Positions 8,311 through 33,501 of a DNA stretch of 50,652 nucleotides are shown here, one piece after another. Each line of letters begins with the position of its first letter. Positions within the stretch are counted from its first letter, which is position 1. The stretch is from assembly GCA_027486935.1 (NCBI GenBank), contig JAIXOF010000164.1, positions 1 to 50,652 on the forward strand. Direction: 5' to 3'. Position numbers and translations under genes: made by a program. The notes beneath the pieces were generated by a model, which saw only the letters and a program-made list of their open reading frames with translations, did not search any database and was not told the origin of the DNA. This DNA is from Cyanobium sp. C1_MAG_00004 (lineage in GTDB: Bacteria; Cyanobacteriota; Cyanobacteriia; PCC-6307; Cyanobiaceae).

Positions 8311-10107
8311 ATGCGACGTAACATGCCCGCCGTGTTGGCACTGGCAGCTCTCAGCAGCGTTCCTGTTGCAGCAACAGCAGAGGAAGGTCGGGCATACCCA
8401 TCAGCTGAAGCCGGAAATAACCAGTCAATTGAAGCTAAAGGCGAGAATCAGCAGACCGGAATTGATCTGGGGATCATTGCCGCCGAATCAATCCGTGCTC
8501 CACGCCCGAAACCGAGTCAAAGTGAAATAGAAAAAAAAGAGGACAAACTAGAAAGCGAAAAAGAGGAGGGTATACCGACATTTAACTCGCTATTTGGCAT
8601 CCCAGAGCAAGGACCGGGCTTCAAGCCGTCCCAAGCAATCCGCTGTGATGCGATCAGACACCTGAAGACACCCTCGACCTACAGAAGACTGGACTCGTTC
8701 TTCAGGCCCGAGGTTCTTCTACCGAAGGCCAAGGAATCCGACTTCCTGAAGCGGGATTTTCTAACCAGTAACTGGGGGGGCACAAGAACGAATTTATACA
8801 AAGCAGGTGTCGATTTCTACGGCTGCTGGGGTATGGACCAGCTCAATGTTCTGCAAGGCAATGTATCAACTGATCCAAATGTAAAGACACCAGCTCCAAA
8901 TTACCAAGACCAGCAAAATTACGTACAACTGTACGGGCTCGACTTTTACTCACATTTGGTCAACAACAAGTGGAAGGGTGGCCAACTTCACTTCTCATTT
9001 GCATGGCCAGAAACAAGACCGATCTGGATGTTCGGCAATAACCTGTATGCAGCGTCCCAATCAATCCATGGAAATTTTTACTACGATACTGGCGGTGGAA
9101 GGACCAACGGGGGCTCAGGCAATTCAGCAGCCTCATACCAAGGCTTTAGGGTCTTCGAGATCTGGGTTCAGCAAAGATACGGCAAAAAGCAAATAAACTA
9201 CGTAAGAGCCGGAAATATTTATCCTTGGATTAGTTTTAACCGGACTATCCTGGCGGCGATGTTCAACTTTTGGACCTTTGACGAACCTGGCAGTTTTGGA
9301 ACAATCCCTAGCGCAGGCAGAGGACCGATCTATCCAACGGCTCCACTAGGCGTCCAGTGGTACCAGGTGATTAACAACAACATGGAATTCCTGGCACAAG
9401 TTGGAGCAGGATATTACGACCCATCTGGTGGGATCCAAAACAGGAGAGGACTTACTTGGTTTCTTGATAACAACAACGGGATCGAGGGCGTAACCCAACT
9501 AACGTTTAAAGGGGGAACCTACAGTGCAAACAACAAGGACTTTGGCCTACCATGGCTATTGCATCTTGGCTGGCAGTTCCACACAGGGCGGGTCTACAGC
9601 AATTATTTGGATGTCAATGGGAATGCTGCACAAGTCACGGGGCTACCTTACAAGCAGTACAACTTCAATACAGGTTTCTATGCCACACTCGAATCAATGC
9701 TATTCAGGGAAAAAGGGAGTTACAACCAGGGACTAACCGGCTTCATAAAAACGACGCAATACTTTCAAGAATACGTCAACCAGATCAAAAACACTTATGT
9801 CATGGGTCTGGGCTATGAAGGTCTGCTGCCCGGCAGGAACAACGACATCCTCATGGCGGGCTTTGGCATCATCAACATGACACAGGGGGCTAAACAATAC
9901 GAAAGCCTGAGTACATCATGCGCACAGAAAACCGGGGGAGGATGCATCAGCTCCGGTGTTCAGTACATCTTCGAAGCCGGTTACTCTGCAAAGATTACAC
10001 CTTGGATGTTCGTTCAACCATCCATACAATACCTTGCCCAACCAGCAGGCAGAATGGATCTGGGTAACATCACAACGTTTACAATATCAGTGGGTTTCGC
10101 TTTCTAA
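8311..10107 (+). CDS. OprB-family carbohydrate-selective-type porin without an SLH domain
   Basis: The 598-residue product begins with a signal peptide (MRRNMPAVLALAALSSVPVAATA) and ends in Phe after alternating hydrophobic strands (TTFTISVGFAF), the signature of an outer-membrane beta-barrel. From about residue 150, FLTSNWGGTRTNLYKAGVDF matches the start of the OprB barrel. Residues about 65-90 form a charged Lys/Glu linker. The SLH domain that anchors ordinary cyanobacterial Som porins to peptidoglycan is not seen; the N-terminal 150 residues do not match it. It lies in the low-G+C region just upstream of a secreted protein gene on the same strand, so it may admit the substrate of the neighbouring enzymes. 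OprB membership is secure; the sugar specificity of relatives should not be assumed. Confidence 0.85.
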   Translation: MRRNMPAVLALAALSSVPVAATAEEGRAYPSAEAGNNQSIEAKGENQQTGIDLGIIAAESIRAPRPKPSQSEIEKKEDKLESEKEEGIPTFNSLFGIPEQGPGFKPSQAIRCDAIRHLKTPSTYRRLDSFFRPEVLLPKAKESDFLKRDFLTSNWGGTRTNLYKAGVDFYGCWGMDQLNVLQGNVSTDPNVKTPAPNYQDQQNYVQLYGLDFYSHLVNNKWKGGQLHFSFAWPETRPIWMFGNNLYAASQSIHGNFYYDTGGGRTNGGSGNSAASYQGFRVFEIWVQQRYGKKQINYVRAGNIYPWISFNRTILAAMFNFWTFDEPGSFGTIPSAGRGPIYPTAPLGVQWYQVINNNMEFLAQVGAGYYDPSGGIQNRRGLTWFLDNNNGIEGVTQLTFKGGTYSANNKDFGLPWLLHLGWQFHTGRVYSNYLDVNGNAAQVTGLPYKQYNFNTGFYATLESMLFREKGSYNQGLTGFIKTTQYFQEYVNQIKNTYVMGLGYEGLLPGRNNDILMAGFGIINMTQGAKQYESLSTSCAQKTGGGCISSGVQYIFEAGYSAKITPWMFVQPSIQYLAQPAGRMDLGNITTFTISVGFAF

Positions 10108-10267
10108 ACCGCAGCAAAGAGCTGGCCGAAGAAAAGTTGAAGTTGAAAACAGGTGTGACCTAAAAAGGACTGGTACAAGCAGTTAAAAGGAAAAAACCTG
10201 GAAGAAATGCAAAAAGCTGCTGATGCAAGGATGGGCAACTAAGATGGAATGGAATCGACTTACACCA

Positions 10268-11259: not shown

Positions 11260-11697
11260 ATGACACAACCTACATGGACACCCCTGGAAGAACCAGCGGA
11301 GGCAAGGCAGGCACGGCAACAAGCGAGTGGCGATAAGCCAAACGAAGCTGGTTTCTGGAATCGAGACGATCTGATCTACGTCGGTGATCTCAACTGGACA
11401 CAATCGCCTAACTTTGTGGGGTATGAATTCATTACTGACATCAGACGCCGTGGCGTGAGTGGCTTCCAGTACCAGTACGGTTTACTTGGTTTGGGAGATC
11501 ATGGTGAAATAGCTCAAACAATGATCTGTGAAGTCCGAGATCAGGAGGCTGATACCAATGGTTTCGACATGCTGGTCGGAACCGAGTGGCAACCCGGGCC
11601 ACTCAAAGCCTGGTTAGATACACTGAGCCTAGAGGTTCAAGATGTAGCCAGGACTCGATACCGAGCCCTGGTGAACTGGGTCAAGGGCAGGCTCTAA
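11260..11697 (+). CDS. Unrecognised 145-residue protein
   Basis: I do not recognise this family. The product has no signal peptide and no membrane segment. It is rich in Trp and aromatic residues in the middle (GFWNRDDLIYVGDLNWTQS, VGYEFITDIRRRG) and ends in an amphipathic helix (ARTRYRALVNWVKGRL). The start is supported by an AAGAAGG ribosome binding site eight bases before the ATG and by the 20-base gap after the secreted DUF5602-like gene, which suggests one operon with it. Its stop codon overlaps that of the convergent NTF2-like gene by a few bases. Confidence 0.65.
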   Translation: MTQPTWTPLEEPAEARQARQQASGDKPNEAGFWNRDDLIYVGDLNWTQSPNFVGYEFITDIRRRGVSGFQYQYGLLGLGDHGEIAQTMICEVRDQEADTNGFDMLVGTEWQPGPLKAWLDTLSLEVQDVARTRYRALVNWVKGRL

Positions 11698-12113
11698 GAC
11701 TGATAAGCAGGATGGGTTGGTCTCAGTAACTTGTACACGCATATTTCTGAGACCAAACCATCATTAATTTTGTAGATCACAATCTCGCAAGCGAGGGGGT
11801 GATCCTGGTCATCAAGAGCAAGGAGCTCGCCCCAGACTTCCCCATTGAGATTAGGGTCAGCTTTGACGGATGTGCGTAGCAGCTTGTAATGAATATTCCG
11901 AGGCCAAAGGGCTTGCATACGCTCTAGAAAAGGGTGAGCAAGGTTGACATCAACCTCAGGCTCCCCAGGATGAACGGTAAGCAGATCCGTAGCAAAGATA
12001 CTTGTCATTGCATCGACATTGCGCTCATTAAACGCACGAACGTAGCGATGCAAAGGTGTCTCAGAAGCATCACTATTTAAGAAAGGTGCATCTAACGATG
12101 GACTAGGGCTCAT
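11694..12113 (-). CDS. NTF2/SnoaL-like domain protein 1
   Basis: With the start at the ATG complementary to 12111-12113 the product has 139 residues. After a short Ser/Pro lead, residues about 18-135 form one NTF2-like cone fold: a helix pair (TPLHRYVRAFNERNVDAMTS), a turn with FATDLLTVHPG, and the beta sheet ending in CEIVIYKINDGLVSEICVY. This superfamily includes SnoaL cyclases, ketosteroid isomerases and epoxide hydrolases; the sequence does not say which. A longer reading frame up to 12284 exists but would overlap the flavodoxin gene start and adds a sequence without protein character. The gene is divergent from the flavodoxin, with about 144 bases between. Confidence 0.7.
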   Translation of the reverse strand: MSPSPSLDAPFLNSDASETPLHRYVRAFNERNVDAMTSIFATDLLTVHPGEPEVDVNLAHPFLERMQALWPRNIHYKLLRTSVKADPNLNGEVWGELLALDDQDHPLACEIVIYKINDGLVSEICVYKLLRPTHPAYQS

Positions 12114-12257
12114 GCAGTGAGGAATGACTTCACCCATTGTGGCCTTGCCAGCACAACAAGGAGACGAGAGGGTACGACTTTGTTGTGAAATCAAGGCGGA
12201 CGGTTGGCTGTCAAAGGGAAAGAGGGGTAGATTGGTAGGAAACTGAGGACCAGTTCC

Positions 12258-12839
12258 GTGCCAATCATCAAGGTTGTGTTCCACTCAGGGAGCGGGAACA
12301 CCAAAGCCCTTGCAGAAGCTGTGCACAAAGGGGCACAGGCACATGGTGATGCCGAGCTCATGGAAATTGTCGGGTCACAAATTCAGGAGGGACGGTTTAA
12401 GGATGACGAATTCCTGAACAAACTCGACCAAGCTGACGCGATCATTTTTGGTAGTCCAACCTATATGGGTATGGTCAGCGGTCAGATGAAGGCGTTCCTC
12501 GACGCAACCAGCAGCCGTTGGATGGGAGGAACCTGGAATTCGAAGCTTGCTGCAGGTTTCACGACAAGCCTTGGGCTCAGCGGTGACAAGCAGTCAACCC
12601 TGAGCTACTTGGTCACTGTTGCCTGTCAACACGGCATGATCTGGGTCAGCAGTGATGCCCCGAATAGCCTGTTCAGCGGTGAATCGATGGAAGAAGCGAC
12701 CAACAGGCTCAGCAGCTCAACAGGCGTGATGAGTCAGGTCAACTTCGGTGCTGAGTTCAAGCCAAGCAACGGTGATCTGAAGACAGGTGAAATGCTTGGA
12801 ACAAGGGTGGCCAAGCTGGCTGCAAAACTAGGCGCCTAA
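12258..12839 (+). CDS. WrbA-like flavodoxin-family NAD(P)H:quinone oxidoreductase
   Basis: The 193-residue product begins at a GTG with GAGG about eleven bases upstream. The FMN phosphate loop SGSGNTKALAEAV sits at residues about 10-22, and GSPTYMGMVSGQMKAFLDAT is the typical second flavin-binding block of WrbA-like proteins. Relatives reduce quinones with two electrons, using FMN and NAD(P)H, and protect against redox cycling. It is flanked by SnoaL-like genes on both sides and ends at a strong bidirectional terminator, so it is probably transcribed alone. A role in reducing a quinonoid intermediate of this cluster is an inference. Confidence 0.85.
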   Translation: MPIIKVVFHSGSGNTKALAEAVHKGAQAHGDAELMEIVGSQIQEGRFKDDEFLNKLDQADAIIFGSPTYMGMVSGQMKAFLDATSSRWMGGTWNSKLAAGFTTSLGLSGDKQSTLSYLVTVACQHGMIWVSSDAPNSLFSGESMEEATNRLSSSTGVMSQVNFGAEFKPSNGDLKTGEMLGTRVAKLAAKLGA

Positions 12840-12860
12840 ACGAAAGCAGCCTAGGTATAA

Positions 12861-12888
12861 AAAAAGGGTGCCAAACGGCACCCTTTTT
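12861..12888. terminator. Bidirectional intrinsic terminator
   Basis: AAAAAGGGTGCC pairs with GGCACCCTTTTT around an AAAC tetraloop. The arms carry an A run on one side and a T run on the other, so the hairpin can stop both the + strand flavodoxin transcript and the converging - strand SnoaL-like transcript. Confidence 0.9.
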
Positions 12889-12912
12889 CATGAAGAATTG
12901 GAGCAAAATCAA

Positions 12913-13311
12913 TCAGGCCTTGAGTTGCTCAACGAGCGTATACTGATCCCAAACATTCCAAAGCTCGGCAATTTTGTCGGCTTCTATTCTAAAAATTGTG
13001 ATGCCATTAACGTCAATCTTTTTGTCGGTCGGAGGCATGCCGTAAAAGTTACCAGTTTGGGTACCGGTGCATTGCCAACGGCAAATGACCCGGTCACCCT
13101 GCTCATAAATGTCCTTGACATCGTAGAAAGCGTCAGGAATCCCGTCGAGAAAACCACCAATAAATCCCTTGGCAGCTTCAGCTCCAACAATGTCATGGGC
13201 ATTAACATGGCCGACATAAGAATCGGTCAAAATCTGGTCAAGCAAATCAACGCGTTTCTCGTTATAAACGGTATAAAACTGAAGCGCAGCCTCGACAGTA
13301 GACGATGCCAT
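12913..13311 (-). CDS. NTF2/SnoaL-like domain protein 2 (ester-cyclase type)
   Basis: Starting at MASSTVEAALQFY gives 132 residues; an in-frame ATG 25 codons upstream adds an unlikely lead. This is the clearest SnoaL/ester-cyclase member of the cluster: YVGHVNAHDIVG, then GDRVICRWQCTGTQTGNFYGM and PTDKKIDVNGITIFRIE, closing with ELWNVWDQYTLVEQL. The pattern GD-V-R-W-GT---G---G-PPT-K---NGI--FRIE-DKI-E-W---D is that of the family of aklanonate cyclase relatives. The late Asp in the closing WDQY segment is the likely acid/base position. It lies 132 bases downstream of the GMC oxidoreductase on the same strand and may be co-transcribed with it. Confidence 0.82.
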   Translation of the reverse strand: MASSTVEAALQFYTVYNEKRVDLLDQILTDSYVGHVNAHDIVGAEAAKGFIGGFLDGIPDAFYDVKDIYEQGDRVICRWQCTGTQTGNFYGMPPTDKKIDVNGITIFRIEADKIAELWNVWDQYTLVEQLKA

Positions 13312-13443
13312 GATGAATTCAGGGAAGGGATAGGGAGTCACTAAACAACTGATAGCTCGGGAAGCCCACTCTTCTTCTGAAAACAAGAGCCATGAGCCAA
13401 GTTAGTCAGTAAAAGAGGGGAAGCACCGCAGGTACCAACAGAA

Positions 13444-14964
13444 TTAATGACCTTCCAATAAAAGGCTAGCAGCATTTTCAGCGAGAACCATCGTGGGGAC
13501 GTGATTGTTTCCCGCAGTGGCGTGTGGAGTCACAGACGAATCTGCAATGCGGACACCCTTGACACCATGAACGCGCAAATGACCATCAACGACACTGCAA
13601 TCTGGATCAGCTCCCATGGAACAGGTTGCCACTGGATGCCAAAGGGTGCTGGCACCGGCACGAATATAAGCTTCTGCATCGATGTCACCCGGTGCAAGTT
13701 CGTCTGCTGCAAAATCAGACATCGCTTTGGTCGTGGCTAGTTGCCTGATCACGTCAATTGACTTCTGGAAGACAGTCACATCAGCCTTGTCAGAGAGGTA
13801 TTGGGGATCGATGACAATCTGTCCATCTGCCTGAAGGCGAATACTGCCGGAGCTGCGGGGTTGAACAAGAATCGGTAAAAAGATCATGACCGGCCCGCCC
13901 AAGGGCGGCAAAAATTGCTGCAAAGGCTGAGGGGACGCCGGTGTGTAGTTCAACTGCAGATCGGGGGCACCATAGGGACTATTTCCATTGAGATCAAGGA
14001 ATAGGACGTTGCCTGTTAAGATCTCAGGTTCGGGCAGGGGTTTCTTGAGTCTATAAATAATAGGCAATTGCAAGTGGTCCATGAGCTGTTGACCCACAGC
14101 ATTAAGATCCTGGTGAACCTTGAGACCTGCAGCCTGAAGGTCAGCTGCAGGTCCAATACCAGAGCGCAGCAGGATCTGTGGGGTCAGCAAAGCACCTGCG
14201 GTCAAAATGACGTCGCCATCGCAATGCATGGTGTGCTCATGACCTTCACTGTCGCGAACCACGACACCAGTGACCCTGCCATGCGAAGAATAGGCAAGTC
14301 TTTGAACAGGACTGTTGGGAGATATGGTTAACAATGGTGAGGCAAGAACTGGCTCAAGATAGGCATTGAATGCACTATGGCGATTGCCGTCCAAGCCAAT
14401 ATTGAATTGCAGCGGTCCGGCGCCACCAGCTTGCACTGGACCGTTGTAATCCCAATCATTTGCCTGATACCCCAGCTCCTTGGCCGCTGCTTGAAAGGGT
14501 TGGGAATAAGAACGCGGATCAGGGCAGCTGCGTACTGTCATCACGCCGCTTGAGTAGCGACCAGGTGCGGGACCGTCTACATAATTTTCGAGGCGAGATA
14601 AGGCCGTTTCAATCCTGGGACGACTCCAAAGATCACCACCCTTCTCAGCAAGAAGCTGATAGTCACCCTGGTGGCAACGAACGTACATCATCGCATTGAT
14701 TGCAGAGCTACCGCCAACCAATCGGCCTTGATTGATCGTGATCTCGCGCCCTGCAAGCCCAGGCTGAGGGGAGGTCTTCAATGCCCAGTCGTGGGAAGAA
14801 CCCCAAAGATTGGTGAAACCTCCAACGGAATCAACATTGGAAAAATGGCGCCTCAGAGGTCCAGCTTCGACAAGCAAGACCCGACGACCAGCGTCAATGA
14901 GACGCCTGGCAAGAACACATCCGGCTGCGCCGGCTCCAACAATGATGTGGTCGTAGCTGGCCAT
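13444..14964 (-). CDS. GMC-family FAD oxidoreductase
   Basis: The 506-residue enzyme has the N-terminal FAD site VGAGAAGCVLARRLIDAG followed by VLLVEAG. The GMC signatures are NQGRLVGGSSAINAMMYVR and, later, GALLTPQILLRSGIGP. The active-site His is seen in STLWHPVATCSMG and the C-terminal FAD/His segment is HATAGNNHVPTMVLAENAA. Members oxidise primary or secondary alcohols (choline, aryl alcohols, sterols, sugars), and a few are hydroxynitrile lyases; the substrate cannot be read from sequence. No signal peptide is present, so it is cytosolic. It is divergent from the tandem SnoaL-like gene and sits at the centre of the NTF2-like cluster. Confidence 0.9.
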   Translation of the reverse strand: MASYDHIIVGAGAAGCVLARRLIDAGRRVLLVEAGPLRRHFSNVDSVGGFTNLWGSSHDWALKTSPQPGLAGREITINQGRLVGGSSAINAMMYVRCHQGDYQLLAEKGGDLWSRPRIETALSRLENYVDGPAPGRYSSGVMTVRSCPDPRSYSQPFQAAAKELGYQANDWDYNGPVQAGGAGPLQFNIGLDGNRHSAFNAYLEPVLASPLLTISPNSPVQRLAYSSHGRVTGVVVRDSEGHEHTMHCDGDVILTAGALLTPQILLRSGIGPAADLQAAGLKVHQDLNAVGQQLMDHLQLPIIYRLKKPLPEPEILTGNVLFLDLNGNSPYGAPDLQLNYTPASPQPLQQFLPPLGGPVMIFLPILVQPRSSGSIRLQADGQIVIDPQYLSDKADVTVFQKSIDVIRQLATTKAMSDFAADELAPGDIDAEAYIRAGASTLWHPVATCSMGADPDCSVVDGHLRVHGVKGVRIADSSVTPHATAGNNHVPTMVLAENAASLLLEGH

Positions 14965-15121
14965 GGCGTGAAATGAGACTGAAAGAAGAAGCCTCTATGA
15001 AGACAAACTAGCCAAAATGAAGGGGAGCAAATGTGAAAAGAAGCTGAAAACCATACTGAGTTGCGTGAAGTACAAGACTTCGCGGCCATAATTGGATTGT
15101 CGTACGCGGATTCAGAGACCC

Positions 15122-15994
15122 GTGTCGCTTTCCAAGGCTCCGGTTGGCAACAAGAAACTCGCCGACATTTATTACAGCAAAGTGATGAATGGGGGCGTCG
15201 TCAGTGCCATACCCTCGATTCTGGGTGAAGACTTTACCTTCACAATCCCCACACACCCTGAAGTATTCCGTGGTATCAAGGGATTTGAAGAGGAGGTGAG
15301 TGGTCTGCATGGAGCATTCCCCGATGTCCATCTCGACGTGCACCACAGATGGATTTTTGATGATCTCATCCTGGGCCTGTGGACCGGAACAGGTACACAC
15401 ATTGGCAGCAAGCCACTCAGCACACCAGCGGGTCCGCTTCCTGCCACAGGCAATTCCTTTAAAATTGAAGGTGTGAGCTGGATCAAGGCCGATGGACAAC
15501 AATTGCGTGAAAATCTGGCTAACGAAGACACCTTACGAATTGTGCACGATCTAGGTGTCAAGGACTGTTCAGCCTTGTACGTGGCAGCAGCATCGGCATT
15601 GGTACAGCAGGCGCAATTTGGACACTCAACCCAGGCCCAACCTGCTGCCAACAACGAAGTACTTGCAAAAGAGGTCCTGCTCAATCACCCGTTATTGACT
15701 CAGCACGCACGTGGACGCGGTCAGGTCAACTCGTTTTTCAGTTGTTATTGGAATGCGTTTGACAACGTCGATCTCCAAATTACACACAGCAAGTCTGGTG
15801 CAGGAGTCAATGCCTATCGATGGGTTTTTGAAGCAAATCACGTTAGACGATTCTTTGGAATTCCGGCAAGTGGCAAGCGCGTTCACCACCAAGGAGTAAC
15901 AGTATGCATCACAAATACACGTGGCGAGGTTGAAATGATGTTCAGCAATGAAAACCTGATCGTCCTACTTGGACAAATGGAATCCGGTTCATGA
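15122..15994 (+). CDS. Tandem SnoaL/ester-cyclase-like protein (two NTF2-like domains)
   Basis: The product (290 residues from GTG 15122; an in-frame TTG at 15092 would give 300) contains two related NTF2-like domains. The first (about 10-145) shows FTFTIPTHPEVFRGIKGFE, GTGTHIGSKP, PATGNSFKIEGVSWIKADG and closes on DTLRIVHDLG. The second (about 165-288) shows ANHVRRFFGIPASGKRVHH, GVTVCITNTRGEVEMMF and LIVLLGQ. The repeated G-H ... P-(A/S)(T)G ... G(V/S) pattern marks both as ester-cyclase type, so this is probably an internal duplication or fusion. NTF2-like proteins usually dimerise, so the tandem may form its own pseudo-dimer. No Shine-Dalgarno sequence decides the start. It leads a + strand run with the next two SnoaL-like genes and the VOC gene. 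Confidence 0.75.
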   Translation: MSLSKAPVGNKKLADIYYSKVMNGGVVSAIPSILGEDFTFTIPTHPEVFRGIKGFEEEVSGLHGAFPDVHLDVHHRWIFDDLILGLWTGTGTHIGSKPLSTPAGPLPATGNSFKIEGVSWIKADGQQLRENLANEDTLRIVHDLGVKDCSALYVAAASALVQQAQFGHSTQAQPAANNEVLAKEVLLNHPLLTQHARGRGQVNSFFSCYWNAFDNVDLQITHSKSGAGVNAYRWVFEANHVRRFFGIPASGKRVHHQGVTVCITNTRGEVEMMFSNENLIVLLGQMESGS

Positions 15995-16142
15995 TTAAAA
16001 AAGATGTCAATGCCGCGACTGGCTTCCACCACGGCTAGAAATAAATAGGCTCGAGAAAGAGCCTGTGAGTTCCGTGCATGACAGGCGGAGCCCAATCACG
16101 AAGCTTGAATCCCACTAATAACAATCACAACACAAAAAAACA

Positions 16143-16568
16143 ATGTCATTCACCCACCCCGAACTCTGGGCCTTCGCTAGCACGTGGTATCGCTACCTTG
16201 ATGTGCATGCGCCGCTAGAAAGCTTTCGGAGCCTCATTACAGAAGATGCAGAATTTGTCTTTCCTGAGGTAACGGTCAAAGGCTTCTCTGGCTACCAAGG
16301 CTGGTATGACACGGTTGTCGGCATCTTTTTTGATGAGCAGCATACACTAAAAATTGCTGACATTCAAAACGATTCTGGCCAAGAATGTACCGCACATGTT
16401 GTTGTCAATTGGCATGCAAGCATCTGGACCCCACCAGCACCACTCAGCACTCGCTTGATGATGGATGCAGATCAGACCTGGACCGTTAGGCGCACAGACG
16501 AAGGCTTGAGGGTTGCCAAGTATGTTGTCAACAATATGACCTACGAACCGGGTTCCTGCAAACTCTGA
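16143..16568 (+). CDS. NTF2/SnoaL-like domain protein 4
   Basis: The 141-residue product opens with helices (ELWAFASTWYRYLDVHAPLE), continues with LITEDAEFVFPEVTVKGFSG and YQGWYDTVVG, and then runs through the beta sheet up to VAKYVVNNMTYEPGS. This is the single-domain NTF2-like layout. His, Trp and Tyr are abundant in the presumed pocket (VVNWHASIWTPP). It lies 148 bases after the tandem SnoaL-like gene and 57 bases before the next NTF2-like gene, all on the + strand. The fold assignment is by pattern; the reaction is unknown. Confidence 0.7.
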   Translation: MSFTHPELWAFASTWYRYLDVHAPLESFRSLITEDAEFVFPEVTVKGFSGYQGWYDTVVGIFFDEQHTLKIADIQNDSGQECTAHVVVNWHASIWTPPAPLSTRLMMDADQTWTVRRTDEGLRVAKYVVNNMTYEPGSCKL

Positions 16569-16625
16569 CCCAAAACCAAGATACCTCAACCGGATTGTTT
16601 TCACTTCTCACCTATTAACAACATC

Positions 16626-17021
16626 ATGAAAAACGTACCCGACACAAAGCTTGGGAATCTGTACAGAGAACACATCAATCTAATCCTTAAAAAGGACATC
16701 GAGGCCTGCCTGCGGCAATATGCACCCGACGCTCTACTGATCTCCAGCTTTGAAAAGACTCCTAAGTATTTCCGAGGGAGAGATGAGTTACGCGAGCATT
16801 TTCAAGGAATCCTCGGCATTGATGGTCTGGAAACGGAAATTGCCTTCTGGGCCGAGACAGAAAATCCGACAACACTGATGATTGTTGAAGCAATCACAAT
16901 GCAGACCCCTGGAGGTGAAGCAAAAATGCGTTTTGCCGATAGCTGGGTACTGAATGAAAAGGGCGAAATCCAAATTCATTTTGCAGGCATGACCCAGTAC
17001 CCAGATGGTTCAGTAGCCTGA
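16626..17021 (+). CDS. NTF2/SnoaL-like domain protein 5
   Basis: The 131-residue product has the NTF2-like opening LYREHINLILKKDIEACLRQ with YAPDALLISSFEKTP, then YFRGRDELREHFQGIL, and the strand segments TLMIVEAITMQTP, AKMRFADSWVLNEKGE and IQIHFAGMTQ. The order (helix pair, acidic strand, G-R-DEL helix, long sheet) is typical of SnoaL-like_2 and nuclear-transport-factor-2-like bacterial proteins. It sits between another NTF2-like gene and the VOC gene, with a 52-base gap to the latter. The biochemical role is unknown. Confidence 0.72.
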   Translation: MKNVPDTKLGNLYREHINLILKKDIEACLRQYAPDALLISSFEKTPKYFRGRDELREHFQGILGIDGLETEIAFWAETENPTTLMIVEAITMQTPGGEAKMRFADSWVLNEKGEIQIHFAGMTQYPDGSVA

Positions 17022-17073
17022 ACTGGCAACTAAACAATTAGAAACCGAGTGACTTTCTGAGCCATAGAACATC

Positions 17074-17487
17074 ATGCTTCAAATCATTTCCCAACTAGCC
17101 CTCACATGCAAAGATCAGGCGACTACTGAGTCCTGGTATTGCAACAACTTTGGCTTTAAGCGAGCACGGGTAGCAAAACTACCAGATGGCCATGAGATCA
17201 TCTTCATTAAGATGGCAGACTCAAGTTTCTACCTTGAACTCTTCTGGTCAGATAGTGAGTCAGGCCTTCCAGACGCGATCAACGATGGTCCAACTTATCC
17301 CGGATTCAGACACCTTGCATTCAAGGTCGATGATGTGGATAAAAAACTGGCATCAATGAACAGCGTAGATATTACACTCGGCCCCCTCGACTTCGATGAC
17401 TTCATCCCTGGATGGCGAACTGTGTGGATCAGAGATCCAGACGGGCGAATTGTCGAAATCTCGCAGGGGTTTACGGACGAAACCTGA
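17074..17487 (+). CDS. VOC (glyoxalase/dioxygenase fold) protein
   Basis: The 137-residue product is a single vicinal-oxygen-chelate unit of two beta-alpha-beta-beta-beta modules: ISQLALTCKDQATTESWYC with FYLELF, then PGFRHLAFKVDDVDKKL with RDPDGRIVEISQ. Of the usual four metal positions, Glu (FYLELF), His (FRHLAF) and Glu (GRIVEI) are visible, but the first ligand, normally His in the opening strand, is Gln here. Members include glyoxalase I, extradiol dioxygenases and epimerases. It is the last gene of the + strand SnoaL-like run and converges on the TPR/2OG gene, with 44 bases between the stops. Confidence 0.8.
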   Translation: MLQIISQLALTCKDQATTESWYCNNFGFKRARVAKLPDGHEIIFIKMADSSFYLELFWSDSESGLPDAINDGPTYPGFRHLAFKVDDVDKKLASMNSVDITLGPLDFDDFIPGWRTVWIRDPDGRIVEISQGFTDET

Positions 17488-17531: not shown

Positions 17532-19040
17532 CTAGCTCACATTAAATGCAACACATATTCGATCCCCTTCGGCAACGAAGGGGATCGTTTCATGTGGCAA
17601 GAAAGACGGGAAGAGAACAAGAAGACCTGGTCTCGGAGTCACAGTGAAGCCGCATGCAGGTTCTTGCCAAAGAGGATTGGGACTAAACCAGAGGCTCCCC
17701 TCGTTACTGGCATTGGCGGCAAGCTTTGGTGGTGTGCTGAGGTAAAGTACGCCACTGATTTGTGCTTCTGGATGGGTATGGCGTAGCTGCTGTCCCCCAG
17801 GACGCAAAACAACTGCCCAACCGCTGTAACGGTCTAGAGAAGATCGATTTTCATGGAGCTTGAACGGAAACTGGTCTTGGTGTTGATGGCGATAGGCCTC
17901 AACAGCAGGTGACAGATAGGACAGCAAGCTTTGACTGAATTGATCATCCGAACGGTTCAGCAGTTCATGTGACTGCAAACCACCAACTGTTGGCTTGCCC
18001 GGTCGATTATCAATCAGGCTGGGGTCAGATTTCAGCCAAGTGATCCATTGAGAAAGCAGAGGGTCATGGGAATGGAACAGCTGTTGCTGCTGCACCAATG
18101 ATGAATACTCCAAGGGCCATTGAGGGAATGTAAGTGCACGCTGACTGGGTGGAAGATCTGCCCAAGCGGCAAGCAACTGAGCAGGAAATGCTCCGTGAGT
18201 AGCGGTGAAAGCACTGAGAACACGGCCAGCAGCTTCGGGCCAGTCACCACGATCCATCGCGGTGAAGATCAATGGCAACTGCACTTGTAGGTCAGATGGC
18301 TGCTCGTCAAGGAGCCTCTGCCAATGCATTCGTGCCTCTTCTAGCTCACCATTGTGGCGGCATAACTCGGCCTGCAGCAAACGTGCATAGCGAGAATGGG
18401 GGTCCAAGACAAGCAGTTCATCAACAATCCTGCGCGCTAGCTGTCGATCACCATAGTCAAGATGAAAACGGGCTGCATTCATCAGGACCGCAGGATGTTG
18501 AGGCCAGCGTGCAAGAAGATTGGAATAACAGGAAGTAGCCTTAAGAACAGAACCGGATTCAGTCAGGGCAAGAGCAAGATTGAGCTGCGGCTCCACCGCA
18601 TCAGGATGAGATTGCACAAGAGCCTCGAGAATCAACGCAGCTCGCTGGATATGTCCACATGCCATCAGTGCTTCTGACAAAGACAATTGCAAAGCAGCTT
18701 CGTTGGGGCGCAGCCGATCTGCAACAGTCAACCAGCGCAGGGCCAAAGCAGATTCACTCGCGCGGAGTGCAGACTGACCAATCAGGGCAGCGAAGGCCGC
18801 AGGGAACGAATCATCCGGTTGAAGGTCTTGACTGAGCTTGAGAACCTCCTCAAAGCGGCCAAGCTGGAAATACAAGCGGGCCAGGTTGGTACGGATGGGC
18901 ATTGCCCCAGGGTCAAGCTCAAGAGCCTTCGTCCAAAGCTGCTCAGCCAAATGAGGTTGACCACTACGTGCCATGGCAACCGCCTGTCCGTTCAACGCTT
19001 GGACTTGGTTCTGACGGTTGGAGTGCATCGACAAGCTCAA
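17532..19040 (-). CDS. TPR protein with C-terminal putative 2OG-Fe(II) oxygenase domain
   Basis: Residues about 15-300 of this 502-residue protein are tetratricopeptide-like helical repeats (for example GQPHLAEQLWTKALELDPG and AVEPQLNLALALTESGS). The C-terminal 100 residues contain GWAVVLRPGGQQLRHTHPEA, SGVLYLSTPP, GSLWFSPNP and LLVLFPSFLPHETIPF, ending in RICVAFNVS. This is the double-stranded beta-helix pattern of the 2OG-FeII_Oxy_5 family: the HxH region and the later His after FPSFLP are the likely iron ligands, and Arg of the closing strand binds 2-oxoglutarate. The TPR part probably recruits a protein or peptide to be hydroxylated. A terminator separates it from the AGE-STAS gene upstream, so it needs its own promoter. 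The substrate is unknown. Confidence 0.75.
   Translation of the reverse strand: MSLSMHSNRQNQVQALNGQAVAMARSGQPHLAEQLWTKALELDPGAMPIRTNLARLYFQLGRFEEVLKLSQDLQPDDSFPAAFAALIGQSALRASESALALRWLTVADRLRPNEAALQLSLSEALMACGHIQRAALILEALVQSHPDAVEPQLNLALALTESGSVLKATSCYSNLLARWPQHPAVLMNAARFHLDYGDRQLARRIVDELLVLDPHSRYARLLQAELCRHNGELEEARMHWQRLLDEQPSDLQVQLPLIFTAMDRGDWPEAAGRVLSAFTATHGAFPAQLLAAWADLPPSQRALTFPQWPLEYSSLVQQQQLFHSHDPLLSQWITWLKSDPSLIDNRPGKPTVGGLQSHELLNRSDDQFSQSLLSYLSPAVEAYRHQHQDQFPFKLHENRSSLDRYSGWAVVLRPGGQQLRHTHPEAQISGVLYLSTPPKLAANASNEGSLWFSPNPLWQEPACGFTVTPRPGLLVLFPSFLPHETIPFVAEGDRICVAFNVS
17560..17587. repeat. Perfect 12-bp inverted repeat inside the 3' end of the TPR/2OG gene
   Basis: CGATCCCCTTCG and CGAAGGGGATCG flank a GCAA spacer. 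The repeat encodes the TIPFVAEGDR segment near the C-terminus on the minus strand. On the + strand it lies about 70 bases after the VOC stop and is followed only by TTTC, so it is at best a weak terminator for that operon. Confidence 0.6.
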
Positions 19041-19142: not shown

Positions 19143-21296
19143 CTAGAGCACCGGGAATTCCTCAGCAAGCTCAGCATCCTCCAAAGACTGACGAACCTCA
19201 GCAGAGGGGTTCCGAAGTGAGAGCTGGAATTGGGAACCAGCTCGCTGCTTGGTGAAAAGAAGATAATTCCAGCCTGTATTGCTGATGAATTTCAGGTGGG
19301 TCAAATCAAGAACAAGACCTTTGAGCCCTTGCAGCTTTTCAACCTGCTGCTTGAGATAACGCAACGAAGACGTGTTCAATTCGCCATTCAGGGAGAAAGT
19401 GGCTATGCCATTCTCATAGGTAAGGAGATTGGCATCAAAACCCATGCCAGCAGGTGTAATGCGGCAACGAACTTTCAACGGCTCTGTGGAATCTGGCAGA
19501 TTGACACACAACTTCTGGCGATCAAAATTCTCGTAAATCTTATCGTCAATCCAAACCTCTGTGAGCTCGATACTACCCTTGGGGAGCAAATCAGGAGCAA
19601 CCCTGAGAATATTGTCGGGCCAAGCACCAGGATTCGGACTGAAGTAGAAGTCCATTGGCTGACGATTGACAAGAAGATTCGTGTAAATCGCCGCCAAGAA
19701 GCAGAGTTCAAATGAGTGGTAACCAGCCATTGAGTGGCTGCCCTTACCGCGCTCGGTACCTAGTGCATAGGGCTGGCCATTGGCAAGGACGTTGAAATAA
19801 ATTCCGCCCTCTTCATAATCAAGGAACCAACCGTTGTAGAAGGCAGAACCCTCACGGGCATAACGCAAATACTCAGGCTTATCGTTATAAACACCGGCCA
19901 TGATGTAGTAAGCGAGGATGCCCTGCTCCTGCTGCCACCAAGCCTTGCGGTCATGCCAAACAAGACGATGGAAATCCTCACCGTCTTTCTTGGTACGTTC
20001 CATCATGTCGTACCAGCCACCGCGCTGATTATCACAGCCAGCTGCTGGAATCGCATCAGCAATTTGATGGGCGAAAGTCTTATAGCTCTCCTTCTGACGC
20101 AGACTCTGCATTCGCGTCAGATTCCAGGCAACTTTGAGGTTATGTCCAACAACACAACGTGCCTGGTGGATACCCCATTTAAGGTCGTGACTCCAGTCGT
20201 CAAAGAACTTTTCGTTCATGAATGGACTGTAACCATAATCCGGGAAGTGATCACAAATGGTATCAAAGGTAGACTCCAGGAAGTCGGCATATTCTGTATT
20301 TTCAGTCGCAAGATAAAGGTTAATCAAATAGGCTGGTGCATGATCGCCTACAGAGTTCCAATTCTTCTTAGCCTTATTGATTCCGAGCGAATCCGCCTTG
20401 GCGTCAAAAGTAACAGGATCAACGTGGGAATAGTAGCCACCATAAGGACCATGGTCCTTGTAATATCGATTAAGGAAGGAAATAGTATCCTCAATATCAA
20501 CGAGAATCTCCTTGTCGCCCGTCAGGCGATAGGTCTGAGTTGGGCCTGCCAGTGCATAGATCTGCTCATAGCAGGGAATGGCATTACCGCCTTCATCCCC
20601 GCCGGCGGTCGACCCCATGTACTTTCGGACTGAGCCGTCAGATTGAATATCAATCTGGCTATACCAATAAGTAATGCCCTCAGTAGTATCTTTATGCCTG
20701 AAGTGTTGCTGCATATATGCAGTACCCTTCGTTGCTGCCTCAAGGGCACGTTCATCACCAGTCATCATGTAGGCCGTGGCAAAGCCATAGACCAGACGTG
20801 AAACAGTATCTAGATTCTGGACACCATCGAGCTTCTTGCCTTCAGCACTTAGGTCAGTGCGGAAGTTCTTGAAGTCAATCGTTTCGCCTTCATTGACCTG
20901 GAACTGTGATTCGAGGTAAAAATTAAGAAGCTGTTGAATTTGATGAATCCACCAGTTCTGCTCTTCAAAGCGAAGGTGATCAGCTGAACGACCAAACACA
21001 AGTATGTGCTTGGCTTCAAACTTCAGGCCACTTGCTTCAGGATAGAAAACGCCATAAGCATGCATGAACCTCCCCACGACGAGAAGATCGGCCATACTGG
21101 GAGCGACCTGAAAGGGCTCACCAAGATTCCGAACGAGCTCTGCATAGCAGGCAGCAGTGACTTTGACGGTAAAAATGCGGCCGTCAGAGGTCTCAACCTC
21201 AACAAAACCCTGACTATCAAAAACGCCAGGGAAATCAACTTTACGAATGTAGCCAGCGATCAGATCAGAGAAAGAAAAATTGAGCTGTCCGGTCAT
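19143..21296 (-). CDS. AGE-family epimerase/isomerase fused to a C-terminal STAS domain
   Basis: This 717-residue protein has three parts. Residues 1-105 form an uncharacterised beta-rich lead. Residues about 120-545 form the alpha6/alpha6 barrel of N-acylglucosamine 2-epimerase (AGE) relatives, with DRKAWWQQEQGILAYY and WFLDYEEGGIYF as the clearest marks; relatives epimerise or isomerise free sugars. From about residue 631 a STAS (anti-anti-sigma) domain follows: IATFSLNGELNTSSLRYL, then GLVLDLTHLKFISNTGWNYL. At the place where SpoIIAA-type proteins have the phosphorylated Ser before Gly, this one has Thr674 (SNTGW). In Synechocystis, as I recall, an AGE-like protein and a STAS phosphoprotein are separate neighbours in the icfG cluster. 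The gene lies 71 bases downstream of the glgX-type gene. Confidence 0.82.
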   Translation of the reverse strand: MTGQLNFSFSDLIAGYIRKVDFPGVFDSQGFVEVETSDGRIFTVKVTAACYAELVRNLGEPFQVAPSMADLLVVGRFMHAYGVFYPEASGLKFEAKHILVFGRSADHLRFEEQNWWIHQIQQLLNFYLESQFQVNEGETIDFKNFRTDLSAEGKKLDGVQNLDTVSRLVYGFATAYMMTGDERALEAATKGTAYMQQHFRHKDTTEGITYWYSQIDIQSDGSVRKYMGSTAGGDEGGNAIPCYEQIYALAGPTQTYRLTGDKEILVDIEDTISFLNRYYKDHGPYGGYYSHVDPVTFDAKADSLGINKAKKNWNSVGDHAPAYLINLYLATENTEYADFLESTFDTICDHFPDYGYSPFMNEKFFDDWSHDLKWGIHQARCVVGHNLKVAWNLTRMQSLRQKESYKTFAHQIADAIPAAGCDNQRGGWYDMMERTKKDGEDFHRLVWHDRKAWWQQEQGILAYYIMAGVYNDKPEYLRYAREGSAFYNGWFLDYEEGGIYFNVLANGQPYALGTERGKGSHSMAGYHSFELCFLAAIYTNLLVNRQPMDFYFSPNPGAWPDNILRVAPDLLPKGSIELTEVWIDDKIYENFDRQKLCVNLPDSTEPLKVRCRITPAGMGFDANLLTYENGIATFSLNGELNTSSLRYLKQQVEKLQGLKGLVLDLTHLKFISNTGWNYLLFTKQRAGSQFQLSLRNPSAEVRQSLEDAELAEEFPVL

Positions 21297-21367: not shown

Positions 21368-23548
21368 TCATGCCCCACCCCCTGGCGCTGGGACCCTTGT
21401 TGTGAGTGCAACAATGCTGCGGGCAGTAACAAGGTATGAATCATTCGTGAAGATGGGCGCATCTTCAAGTGGGAGAATATCCATTGGCGAAGGCTGGGCA
21501 GTATCGATGGTGCGTCTCCATGTCAAACCCGCGAAGTTAGGCACCTCAAATTCAACTGCTTCCCAATGCATGTTCATCATCACATGAACATTGGCTAGAC
21601 CATCAGTATCTTCAGCGACATCGCCAAGGGTGACTGCCAAGCAGCATGCATTGGGATCCTGCCAATTGGGCTGATTAAGCTGGGGACCATGCCAGCTGAT
21701 CTCAGAAACGCCATATCGGTTCTGCTTGTCTGCAGTAAAGAACTTACCCTTAAAGTGAAGTATATAATCCTCGCGCTTTTGCATCAATAAGTGCCAAAAG
21801 CGAATCATCTCCTGAGAATCCGCAGATCCAATTTTTTCCCAGTCATACCAGTTCAGCTCATTATCTTGACAGTAGGTGTTGTTGTTGCCCTTCTGACTAC
21901 GCATGAATTCGTCGCCACCGACGATCATGGGTACACCCATAGATAGCATCAACATACAAGCAAAGTTCTTAACTTGGCGCTTGCGAAGATCGTTGACAAA
22001 CTGGTCACTCGTTTCTCCCTCGGCTCCACAATTCCAGCTTAAATTATCAGAAATTCCATCATTATTTCCCTCACCGTTGGCCCAATTACGCTTCTCATTG
22101 TAGGCGCACAGATCATACAAAGTAAAACCGTCATGGGCAGTAATGAAATTCACACTGTTGACGGGATCCTCATGCTGCCATTGGTAAAGATCTGCACTAC
22201 CTGTGATGCGCGAAGCTACTTCACCAATTACACCAGGATCACCTTTGACGAATCGGCGAATAGCATCTCGATATTTGCCATTCCACTCAGCCCAGCGAGC
22301 TCCGGGGAAGTAGCCAATTTGATAGAGACCAGCCGCATCCCAGGCTTCAGCAATCACCTTGCTGGAGCCGAGCACATCGTCGAGCTCAATGGACCAGATC
22401 ACCGGAGGATGCGGCAAGGGGGATCCATCTTCACCTCGGGTAAGGACCGACCCCTCGTCAAAACGGAAGCCGTCGACATGCATCTCCTGCACCCAATAGC
22501 GCAGACAATCCAGAATTAATTTCTCACCAATGGGGTGATTACAATTGAAGGTATTACCACAGCCTGTGTAGTCGTAGTAAAACTCCTTCGAACCGTTTTG
22601 GCCAGTTAGGTAGTAATAAGTACTATTGTCAAAGCCTTTAAAAGAGAACGTTGGCCCCTGATGGTTGCCCTCATCAGTGTGGTTAAAGACAACATCGAGG
22701 ATAACTTCAATCCCTGCCTTGTGAAAGGCCTTGACCATATCTCGGAATTCATCAACGTGACAGCCCGACTCAGGGCTTGTGCAATACGCTTGATGAGGGG
22801 CGAAATACCCCATGGTGCTGTAGCCCCAGTAGTTGACGAGCTTCTGACCTTCGAATTCCTTGAATACGTCTGTGCAATCAAAGCTGAAAACAGGCAACAG
22901 TTCGACAGCAGTCACCCCCAGTGACTTCAGATAGGGTATTTTTTCAATTGCCCCTAAAAATGTTCCTGGATTCTTCACCCCACTGGTTGGGCTCTTGGTG
23001 AAACCTCCAATGTGCATCTCATAGATAACGGTTTCAGCCATCGGGCGACGCAGTGGTTGATCGCCTTCCCAGTCATACCCCCTGGGATCAATAACTACAC
23101 TGCGGATGCTCTGGTGAAGGTTGTCACCTGGTTGGCAAGCAGCACCTCGATTCCAAAGACCGAGATAATTACCCTTTGAATAAGGATCAACAAGAACCTT
23201 CTGTGGATCAAAGCGATGGCCGTTCCAGGGCTCATTCGGGCCGTTCACTCTGTAGGCATAGCCGATGCCTGGTTTTAAACCCTGAATATAGACGTGCCAA
23301 AGGTAAAAACTTTTGTTTGAAACTGGATTCAGATCAATGACTTTAAAGGGATCAGGGTCACTGGGATGCCTGAACAAAAGCAACTGAACCGATGTAGCAT
23401 TAGCACTATAAACAGAAAAATTCACCCCTTCGTCGTCAACTGTTGCGCCGAAAGGATGGGGTGAACCAGAGTAAATTCGAAATTCTTCCCCTGCTGAGCT
23501 CAGCGGGCGTCCTTTAAGGATCTGGGAAGGGGAGCTTGCAAGAGTCAT
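21368..23548 (-). CDS. glgX: GlgX/isoamylase-type glycogen debranching enzyme
   Basis: The 726-residue GH13 enzyme hydrolyses alpha-1,6 branches of glycogen. An N-terminal CBM48-type beta-sandwich (about 30-130, from PFGATVDDEGVNFSVYS) precedes the TIM barrel. Catalytic motifs are present: DVVFNHT, DGFRFDEGSVL (nucleophile Asp), VIAEAWDAAG (acid/base Glu) and FITAHDGFTL (stabilising Asp). The usual GlgX blocks NWANGEGNNDG and PMIVGGDEFMRSQKGNNN also occur. Length and layout match the isoamylase/GlgX family. It lies upstream of the AGE-STAS gene and downstream of the ThDP enzyme on one strand. G+C here is lower than in the flanking core, so it may be one of two copies in the genome. Confidence 0.93.
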   Translation of the reverse strand: MTLASSPSQILKGRPLSSAGEEFRIYSGSPHPFGATVDDEGVNFSVYSANATSVQLLLFRHPSDPDPFKVIDLNPVSNKSFYLWHVYIQGLKPGIGYAYRVNGPNEPWNGHRFDPQKVLVDPYSKGNYLGLWNRGAACQPGDNLHQSIRSVVIDPRGYDWEGDQPLRRPMAETVIYEMHIGGFTKSPTSGVKNPGTFLGAIEKIPYLKSLGVTAVELLPVFSFDCTDVFKEFEGQKLVNYWGYSTMGYFAPHQAYCTSPESGCHVDEFRDMVKAFHKAGIEVILDVVFNHTDEGNHQGPTFSFKGFDNSTYYYLTGQNGSKEFYYDYTGCGNTFNCNHPIGEKLILDCLRYWVQEMHVDGFRFDEGSVLTRGEDGSPLPHPPVIWSIELDDVLGSSKVIAEAWDAAGLYQIGYFPGARWAEWNGKYRDAIRRFVKGDPGVIGEVASRITGSADLYQWQHEDPVNSVNFITAHDGFTLYDLCAYNEKRNWANGEGNNDGISDNLSWNCGAEGETSDQFVNDLRKRQVKNFACMLMLSMGVPMIVGGDEFMRSQKGNNNTYCQDNELNWYDWEKIGSADSQEMIRFWHLLMQKREDYILHFKGKFFTADKQNRYGVSEISWHGPQLNQPNWQDPNACCLAVTLGDVAEDTDGLANVHVMMNMHWEAVEFEVPNFAGLTWRRTIDTAQPSPMDILPLEDAPIFTNDSYLVTARSIVALTTRVPAPGGGA

Positions 23549-23665: not shown

Positions 23666-25423
23666 TCATTGTCCGCACTTCACGCCAACCAGATCTGGGC
23701 GGACATCGCCTTCCAGAACTAAATTGATCAGGTAGGGACCCTGATAAGCCAACATACGCTCGATCGCAGGCTGAACTTGATCCGGATTCCAAACCCTTTC
23801 GCCAGCCACTCCAAAGCTCTGCGCAATAACGTCAAATGAGATTTCCGGATTGGACAGATCAAAGGACGTCGGGAAAGACCTACCCTCAATACCTCTTTCT
23901 TTCCAGTATTGAGTAATGTTCGCCTGCAACAGCCGATAGGAACGGTTTTGGCAAACAACAAACTTGGCATTCACACCGTGGCGAGCTGCCGTCCAGAGGC
24001 ATTGAATGGTATACATGCTGCCGCCATCGCCAGAAAAGCCAACAACCGTTTGGTCTGGATGCGCAAGCTTGGCTCCGATTGCACCTGGGAAACCTGTTCC
24101 CAGTGAGCCACCCCTAGTCAACATCTTATCGCCTGGCTTTATGCCGGGAATAAAGTACTCAAGAGGAGGGGAATTTGTCAGCGCCTCGTCGAATATAATT
24201 GAATTCTCTGGCAAAAGCTCTGCCAACGTCTTCATGAAAAAGCCGGATTTCATGTACGTTGTTTGATCATCGTATGCCTCACTCGCCAGTTTTGGTGTGG
24301 CTTCGTAGATTTCGGGAATCTTGCTGTTAGCGCGTGGCGAAGCGTCTGAGTGCTGGCGCAAACGTGATGCGGCAGCCTGCTCAAATTCCAATGATGATTC
24401 GGCTCTAAGCCGACTCAACAGGGCATCAACAAAAGCGAGGGGTCTACACACATAGGAATAGTCAACCCGATGATTCTTGGCAATGTTATTTATATTCGTG
24501 TCAGCGTGAACCACTGTCGTACCTGGCGAAAAGATATCGCCTAGATGAGGGAAGACCTCGGGCAGCAGATAGCAACCCAGCGCCAGAACAAAATCGGCCT
24601 CCTGGATCAAGGGCAGACTGGCAAAGCCGAACATATGGCCTGTGCTGCCGAAATACAAGGGATGGTTACGGGGAAAGTTCACCTCGCCACCATCTGCCTC
24701 ATAAACCTTGGCGCCCATCCGCTCTGCCAATTCGACGATTGGAGCAAGACCACGGTCAGCGGTACATCCCAGTCCTGCCTTGGAAGTCCAGGCGACACCG
24801 TCGCCAGCCAAAATGATCGGATTTTTGGCGTTCTGAATCAAGCCAATCAAACGATCCAGGCTTTGTTCATGCGGAACAGTGTCAAAGCTTGGAATATGCG
24901 CAGGAAAAATCTCCTCAGTTACTTCCTGATCGAGGATGTCTTCCGGTAGACATAGATAAACCGGCCCGCATGGTGGAGTGCAGGCAATCTTGATGGCTCG
25001 TCTGACCATGCGCAGCAAACTTGAAGGATGCTGAACCATGGCTGACCATTTGGTCACTGGTTTAGCCATGGCGACAAGATCAGCCGCCATCTGAGCATCC
25101 ATTGCCTGATATTTGATTCCGGAATCCCCCCCGATGACGACCAAAGGAGATTGCCCTTTGTAGGCCTGGTAAAGATTGCCAATGGCATTACCAAGTCCTG
25201 GCGAACTGTGAATCTGAACCAGGGCCGGCTTGAAGCGGGCCCTGGCGTAGCCATCTGCACAGAGGACAGCGATTGACTCTTGAAGTGTCAGCACATACCG
25301 CATCTGCGGCAAGTCCTCAATAGCATCAAGAAATCCCTGCTCGACAGTGCCAGGGTTGCCGAACATGTGGTCAATACCGTTAGCCAGGAATTGACGCAGA
25401 ATCGCTTCGTGTCCCCTCATCAT
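23666..25423 (-). CDS. ThDP-dependent decarboxylase, benzoylformate-decarboxylase-like
   Basis: The 585-residue protein has the three-domain ThDP fold. The N-terminal half shows MFGNPGTVEQGFLDAIED and the cofactor-activating Glu in LTLQESIAVLCADGYARA. Next comes LVQIHSSPGLGNAIG, whose His fits the active-site His70 of benzoylformate decarboxylase. The ThDP/magnesium motif is GFSGDGGSMYTIQCLWTAA ending in CQN. The IHS-PG-GNA block separates it from acetolactate synthases, which relatives are often mis-called. The likely reaction is non-oxidative decarboxylation of a 2-keto acid to an aldehyde; the substrate is unknown. It is 58 bases downstream of the DJ-1/PfpI gene and 117 upstream of the GlgX-type gene on one strand. 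Confidence 0.82.
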   Translation of the reverse strand: MMRGHEAILRQFLANGIDHMFGNPGTVEQGFLDAIEDLPQMRYVLTLQESIAVLCADGYARARFKPALVQIHSSPGLGNAIGNLYQAYKGQSPLVVIGGDSGIKYQAMDAQMAADLVAMAKPVTKWSAMVQHPSSLLRMVRRAIKIACTPPCGPVYLCLPEDILDQEVTEEIFPAHIPSFDTVPHEQSLDRLIGLIQNAKNPIILAGDGVAWTSKAGLGCTADRGLAPIVELAERMGAKVYEADGGEVNFPRNHPLYFGSTGHMFGFASLPLIQEADFVLALGCYLLPEVFPHLGDIFSPGTTVVHADTNINNIAKNHRVDYSYVCRPLAFVDALLSRLRAESSLEFEQAAASRLRQHSDASPRANSKIPEIYEATPKLASEAYDDQTTYMKSGFFMKTLAELLPENSIIFDEALTNSPPLEYFIPGIKPGDKMLTRGGSLGTGFPGAIGAKLAHPDQTVVGFSGDGGSMYTIQCLWTAARHGVNAKFVVCQNRSYRLLQANITQYWKERGIEGRSFPTSFDLSNPEISFDVIAQSFGVAGERVWNPDQVQPAIERMLAYQGPYLINLVLEGDVRPDLVGVKCGQ

Positions 25424-33427: not shown

Positions 33428-33501
33428 GCTCCCTTAGCTCAGCTGGATAGAGCAGCTGCCTTCTAAGCAGCCGGTCGATGGTTCGAGTCCATCAGGGGGC
33501 G
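33428..33501 (+). tRNA. tRNA-Arg (anticodon UCU)
   Basis: All arms fold: the 7-bp acceptor stem GCTCCCT/AGGGGGC with one T-G pair, the D arm GCTC...GAGC, the anticodon stem GCTGC/GCAGC with loop CTTCTAA (anticodon TCT, reading AGA/AGG) and the T arm GATGG/CCATC around TTCGAGT. The discriminator base is G. CCA is not encoded. It lies alone between the HTH gene and arfB; no integration site remnant is visible beside it. Confidence 0.96.

Follow-up and report, generated by a model that had tools for sequence, protein, structure and literature searches.

The 50,652-nucleotide stretch of contig JAIXOF010000164.1 from Cyanobium sp. C1_MAG_00004 (hereafter the window) carries a gene cluster encoding several SnoaL/NTF2-like proteins, a GMC flavoprotein oxidoreductase, a VOC protein, a thiamine diphosphate (ThDP) enzyme, a DJ-1 protein, an AGE-STAS fusion protein and a GlgX-type glycogen debranching enzyme, and clusters of this kind, with largely the same gene order, were found in cyanobacteria, Bacteroidota and Verrucomicrobiota. 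The core genes very probably constitute one co-inherited unit, and the reading tentatively favoured here is a horizontally moving metabolic cluster acting on a sugar derived from alpha-glucan (glycogen). An earlier note, made from the sequence of the window alone, had set the boundaries at 11694-17487; comparison with the related loci shifts them, leaving SnoaL_A and the WrbA-like gene outside the unit and bringing the AGE-STAS, GlgX, ThDP and DJ1a genes inside, so that the conserved unit reaches position 26360 (about 26.4 kb). The genes in question are as follows.

12913-13386, reverse strand: SnoaL_B, SnoaL family (PF07366), 157 amino acids (Pfam, 106 bits)
13444-14964, reverse strand: GMC flavoprotein oxidoreductase, 506 amino acids (Pfam GMC N and C domains)
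15092-15994, forward strand: SnoaL_C, tandem double SnoaL protein, 300 amino acids (two PF07366 stretches, 76 bits)
16143-16568, forward strand: SnoaL_D, SnoaL_4 type, 141 amino acids (Pfam, 27.6 bits)
16626-17021, forward strand: SnoaL_E, 'MKNVPDT' NTF2-like protein, 131 amino acids (Pfam SnoaL_2, 31.4 bits)
17074-17487, forward strand: VOC (glyoxalase-fold) protein, 137 amino acids (Pfam Glyoxalase, 39 bits; alignment)
19143-21296, reverse strand: AGE-fold sugar epimerase/isomerase-like protein with C-terminal STAS domain, 717 amino acids (Pfam for STAS, profile and model)
21368-23548, reverse strand: GlgX-type glycogen debranching enzyme, GH13/CBM48 (NCBIfam TIGR02100)
23666-25423, reverse strand: ThDP enzyme, benzoylformate-decarboxylase-like (Pfam, best matches in the PDB)
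25482-26360, reverse strand: DJ1a, DJ-1/PfpI (ThiJ-like) protein (Pfam, alignment)

In total, 45 related loci were compared, comprising 41 from a SnoaL_E scan of 84,980 genomes, one from a cyanobacterium of another family (G094) and three more; nearly all were found by SnoaL_E, on which the proportions given here are conditional, and many are cut by contig ends. The organism records of L022 (a 'proteobacterium' metagenome-assembled genome) and L062 (flagged as contaminated) are doubtful. Hosts of SnoaL_E loci included the cyanobacteria Synechococcus, Prochlorococcus, Cyanobium, Oscillatoria, Nostoc and Trichodesmium, and further Dyadobacter, Runella, Persicitalea, Arundinibacter and others as well as one Opitutaceae bacterium; with Bacteroidota and Verrucomicrobiota among its carriers, the cluster is not a cyanobacterial speciality. 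SnoaL_D was present at 43 of the 45 loci, the VOC and ThDP genes at 40 each, DJ1a at 37, GlgX at 34, AGE at 33 and GMC at 25. The seven core genes (SnoaL_D, SnoaL_E, ThDP, DJ1a, VOC, AGE and GlgX) occurred all together at 28 loci, and those found share one strand at every one of the 45, whereas the Cyanobium copy is rearranged, with genes on both strands. At least three SnoaL genes were detected at 29 loci (maximum seven), and the combination of at least three SnoaL genes with GMC and VOC genes recurred at 18 loci besides the window, which bears out the proposal that these genes are a real unit that travels. Moreover, STAS and RsbW genes adjoin GlgX at 24-25 loci, and pairwise protein distances correlate (r 0.58-0.98), with the phylum split accounting for much of this. 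In G094, the GMC gene is followed by relatives of SnoaL_E (75% identity) and SnoaL_B, and then by DJ-1, VOC, AGE-type, STAS, GlgX-type and RsbW-type ATPase genes.

Among 386 cyanobacterial genomes, SnoaL_E was found in eight, SnoaL_D in nine (the same eight plus one weak case), DJ1a in 11 and AGE in 35 (~9%). All eight SnoaL_E genomes, which span eight genera in five families, also carry SnoaL_D, DJ1a and AGE (hypergeometric p of 8e-16, 1e-14 and 2e-9, respectively, with relatedness ignored); the SnoaL_E of one of them, G388, is more divergent (47%). The co-occurrence persists even in G274 and G094, where linkage is only partial; DJ1a of G274 adjoins AGE, far from SnoaL_E.

The fold classes of the cluster proteins are well supported. 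The five proteins with six SnoaL/NTF2-like domains that the earlier note had listed, along with the GMC, VOC and WrbA-like proteins, all lie where it put them; SnoaL_B, SnoaL_C, SnoaL_D and SnoaL_E score above the Pfam cut-off and SnoaL_A below it. With these four assigned by Pfam and SnoaL_E also modelled, neither a predominance of other folds nor a separate occurrence of the genes was seen. The whole 2.98-Mb genome has seven PF12680 matches, three of which lie here within 3.7 kb, indicating clustering beyond chance. SnoaL_B is 49% identical to the SnoaL protein whose gene adjoins the GMC gene in G094, SnoaL_C matches the double SnoaL proteins of the Dyadobacter and Arundinibacter clusters at 27-33%, and SnoaL_E keeps 65-89% identity across the three phyla. 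The AlphaFold2 model of SnoaL_E, the only one of SnoaL_A to SnoaL_E modelled, has a pLDDT of 91 and a ketosteroid isomerase/NTF2 fold (Z ~15), and the best matches in a profile search were the polyether epoxide hydrolase MonB and ketosteroid isomerase. SnoaL_E shares its fold with both and lacks the Tyr16/Asp40/Asp103 set of ketosteroid isomerase: in an alignment by eye, Ser41 stands at the position of the base Asp40 and His16 at that of Tyr16, while SnoaL_E has a conserved set of its own (Glu15, His16, Glu77, Asp105, Trp107 and His118). A scan of viral contigs returned no SnoaL_E relatives.

The GMC oxidoreductase has both the N and C domains of its family, and its catalytic residues His443 and Asn486 are invariant in the alignment. 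In the tree, it groups with the cluster GMC of G094 (97/94) and then with the cluster GMCs of Bacteroidota (100/98), apart from the other sampled cyanobacterial GMCs and on a long branch; this clade excludes the GMCs from the clusters of Oscillatoria, Cyanobium CH-040 and Opitutaceae, so recruitment of a GMC probably took place on more than one occasion. For the ThDP enzyme, the best PDB matches were benzoylformate decarboxylases, with 1bfd matched over the whole length. Of the benzoylformate decarboxylase residues Ser26, Glu47, His70 and His281, the equivalents of Glu47 and His70 are retained (Glu49 and His72), whereas Thr26 replaces Ser26 and no His occupies the position of His281, which implies a substrate, and probably also a reaction, other than that of 1bfd. 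Glu18, Cys170 and His197 of DJ1a are invariant in the alignment, and the protein matches DJ-1 homolog D and Hsp31-like proteins.

The AGE-STAS protein is well supported by its modelled fold and motif residues as a sugar epimerase/isomerase-like protein. Its profile match was glucose 2-epimerase (8h1k, E 2e-6), and residues 99-547 of its model matched sugar 2-epimerases/isomerases at Z 33-37 over 360-384 residues. The model has the (alpha/alpha)6 barrel of the AGE superfamily, with Gly-His385, Asp371 and His527 aligned or invariant, and Asp254 and the Gly-His motif of RsGE align with it. Compared with AGE sugar 2-epimerases (Runella slithyformis 8h1k, cellobiose 2-epimerase and D-mannose isomerase 5x32), it is alike in fold and in the positions of the barrel His/Asp motifs, and differs in its low identity (~15-20%), an extra N-terminal beta domain, the C-terminal STAS domain and a Lys for Glu exchange. 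GlgX scored 692.5 bits against TIGR02100 (cut-off 640.9) and is a paralogue of two other proteins in the genome, to which it is 46% and 40% identical. AGE and GlgX genes also occur as a stand-alone module, often with STAS, DJ1b-like and RsbW genes (L078, L079, L085, L086, L091-L094).

In addition to the conserved genes, some relatives carry genes for CoxL/CoxS/XdhC, a short-chain dehydrogenase (SDR), an alcohol dehydrogenase (ADH), an aldo-keto reductase (AKR), P450 or ABM. CoxL/CoxS genes were found at 9-10 loci; in Nostoc-type and other filamentous cyanobacteria (L082-L083, L087 and L034), the molybdenum hydroxylase genes CoxL, CoxS and XdhC are added. Single annotated clusters include glycogen synthase (Runella rosea plasmid, with a TonB receptor downstream of the cluster) and malQ (Nostoc C052 plasmid, also with glgX). 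In the Bacteroidota clusters L063 (19013-22204) and L049 (17311-20390), a gene for an nSTAND1-WD40 protein directly follows RsbW.

Four further genes of the window flank or interrupt the conserved unit.

11694-12284, reverse strand: SnoaL_A, weak SnoaL_2 match (Pfam, 20.3 bits against a cut-off of 27)
12258-12839, forward strand: WrbA-like flavoprotein, FMN_red (Pfam, 62 bits)
17532-19040, reverse strand: TPR and 2-oxoglutarate (2OG)-Fe(II) oxygenase-like protein, accessory (Pfam)
26525-28168, forward strand: 547-amino-acid protein with a weak starch-binding-type domain (weak X25/CBM_20 matches)

By sequence comparison, none of the related clusters encodes a counterpart of SnoaL_A or the WrbA-like protein, and both have hardly any close relatives within the host family. 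The annotated 5' regions of their genes overlap on opposite strands, so the true start of SnoaL_A is probably an internal ATG. The TPR and 2OG-Fe(II) protein has counterparts (26-31%) in picocyanobacterial clusters only. The 26525 product has no significant Pfam family and a weak pullulanase X25/starch-binding match; its counterparts adjoin clusters at seven picocyanobacterial loci, and one (71% identity) occurs in the same-genus genome G004, where the GMC of the window was not found. Whether the 26525 gene belongs to the cluster is uncertain. From 8.2 to 26.4 kb, the GC content is 0.47-0.53 against 0.59-0.70 in the flanks, and this 18-kb low-GC stretch therefore fits an acquired island. The island is flanked by PNPase and the 26525 gene and also contains an OprB porin gene (8311-10107) and genes at 10223 and 11260 without a Pfam match. 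No empty insertion site was shown, the same-genus contig with the 26525 gene ending just past that gene. Near the cluster there was no Rfam RNA, riboswitches included, the only tRNA lying at 33428; promoter and terminator scans gave results at or below the shuffled expectation, and PADLOC matched no defence system.

From this gene set we infer a substrate, an order of steps, a product and a mode of regulation. GlgX would debranch the glucan, and the AGE-fold protein would epimerise or isomerise the sugar, by 2-epimerisation or aldose-ketose exchange. Oxidation of an alcohol could then fall to the GMC flavoenzyme, with a molybdenum hydroxylase acting additionally or instead in some clades, and the ThDP enzyme could cleave or join a 2-oxo acid or hydroxyketone. 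The DJ-1 and VOC proteins, along with several of the NTF2-like ones, might isomerise, dehydrate or hydrate the small carbonyl compounds so formed, while the STAS domains, accompanied in many relatives by RsbW-type kinases, would probably turn the pathway on under stress. Action of the core on an alpha-glucan-derived sugar is a possibility of somewhat less than even weight; in its favour are the seven core genes found together and co-occurring, the correlated protein distances, the glycogen synthase and malQ genes of single clusters, the AGE fold and motif residues, the TIGR02100 score of GlgX and the STAS and RsbW genes adjoining GlgX. A bolder version, in which a new pathway branches from glycogen and leads alpha-glucan through a dedicated NTF2-like/ThDP/DJ-1/VOC set to a compound for protection or signalling, with STAS/RsbW as the switch and horizontal spread across three phyla, is doubtful. 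Several observations weigh against the glucan-sugar reading. Behind the Gly-His motif, the AGE protein carries Lys instead of the Glu of RsGE; the substrate is not fixed by any conserved transporter or product-defining enzyme; and the search for DJ1b in the genome of the window came back empty, nor does an RsbW gene adjoin the cluster there. Furthermore, AGE, GlgX and STAS are also encountered as a group lacking the SnoaL/ThDP genes (35 versus eight cyanobacteria), and the two are therefore possibly separate modules that are merely frequent neighbours.

Instead, the cluster might turn a sugar or 2-oxo acid into a specialised small molecule (a solute, pigment or signal), with its NTF2-like proteins in the cyclase, isomerase or hydratase roles known from polyketide and polyether pathways. 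The abundance of SnoaL genes (three or more at 29 of the 45 loci, up to seven), the MonB and ketosteroid isomerase matches of SnoaL_E, the P450, SDR and ABM genes that some clusters have as neighbours and the patchy distribution all fit this proposal; it is nevertheless unlikely, given a core devoid of a synthase for a known scaffold and surrounded by conserved sugar genes. The earlier note had likewise seen no polyketide synthase, and neither this nor another scaffold synthase was found among the window genes scanned. That note preferred the conversion of an imported compound, for which the OprB carbohydrate porin upstream in the same island, the TonB receptor downstream in Runella rosea and the oxidoreductase-rich content, including CoxL/CoxS, can be cited. 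This preference loses ground since the genes conserved beside the core belong to intracellular alpha-glucan metabolism (GlgX, with glycogen synthase or malQ in single relatives), whereas no transporter or receptor consistently accompanies the core from clade to clade, and we consider it rather unlikely. A stress module clearing reactive carbonyls from glycogen mobilisation, with DJ-1 and VOC as glyoxalases and GMC, AKR and ADH enzymes for redox clean-up, would suit the invariant Cys and His of DJ1a, its DJ-1 homolog D and Hsp31-like matches, the VOC protein, the AKR and ADH genes of some clusters and the STAS/RsbW genes; since it leaves the ThDP enzyme, the AGE protein and the highly conserved SnoaL_D and SnoaL_E unexplained, it appears improbable. 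An accidental pile-up of unrelated genes in a genomic island, which the mixed strands and low GC of the window might suggest, has next to no likelihood in view of the content, order and strand conserved in three phyla and the near-perfect co-occurrence; it is refuted for the core genes and is left with just SnoaL_A, WrbA and the 10223 and 11260 genes.

NTF2-like enzymes are mostly known from antibiotic pathways, and the present cluster links them to glycogen metabolism and stress-type switches. At least seven enzyme genes keep their content and order across three phyla, so a definite function is to be expected. The hosts range from picocyanobacteria of the sea to bacteria of fresh water and soil, and culturable ones such as Dyadobacter, Runella and Nostoc allow direct tests of the cluster.

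As for known systems, a search of open-licence papers found no study of the cluster or of this gene combination, in line with the earlier note, which knew of no described pathway of such make-up. The Anabaena low-temperature operon lti46 was considered as a counterpart and ruled out because its gene products differ, all0458/lti46.2 being a Dps protein and all0459 ferritin-like (PMC4915528). The annotated cluster on the Runella rosea plasmid NZ_CP030852 is the closest counterpart, with DJ-1, ThDP, GMC and six SnoaL-type genes in a row that continues with SnoaL_E, DJ1b, VOC, AGE, STAS, glgX, STAS and RsbW. The Runella genes lie on a single strand and include DJ1b, separate STAS genes, RsbW and glycogen synthase, whereas in the window AGE is fused to STAS and DJ1b is absent.

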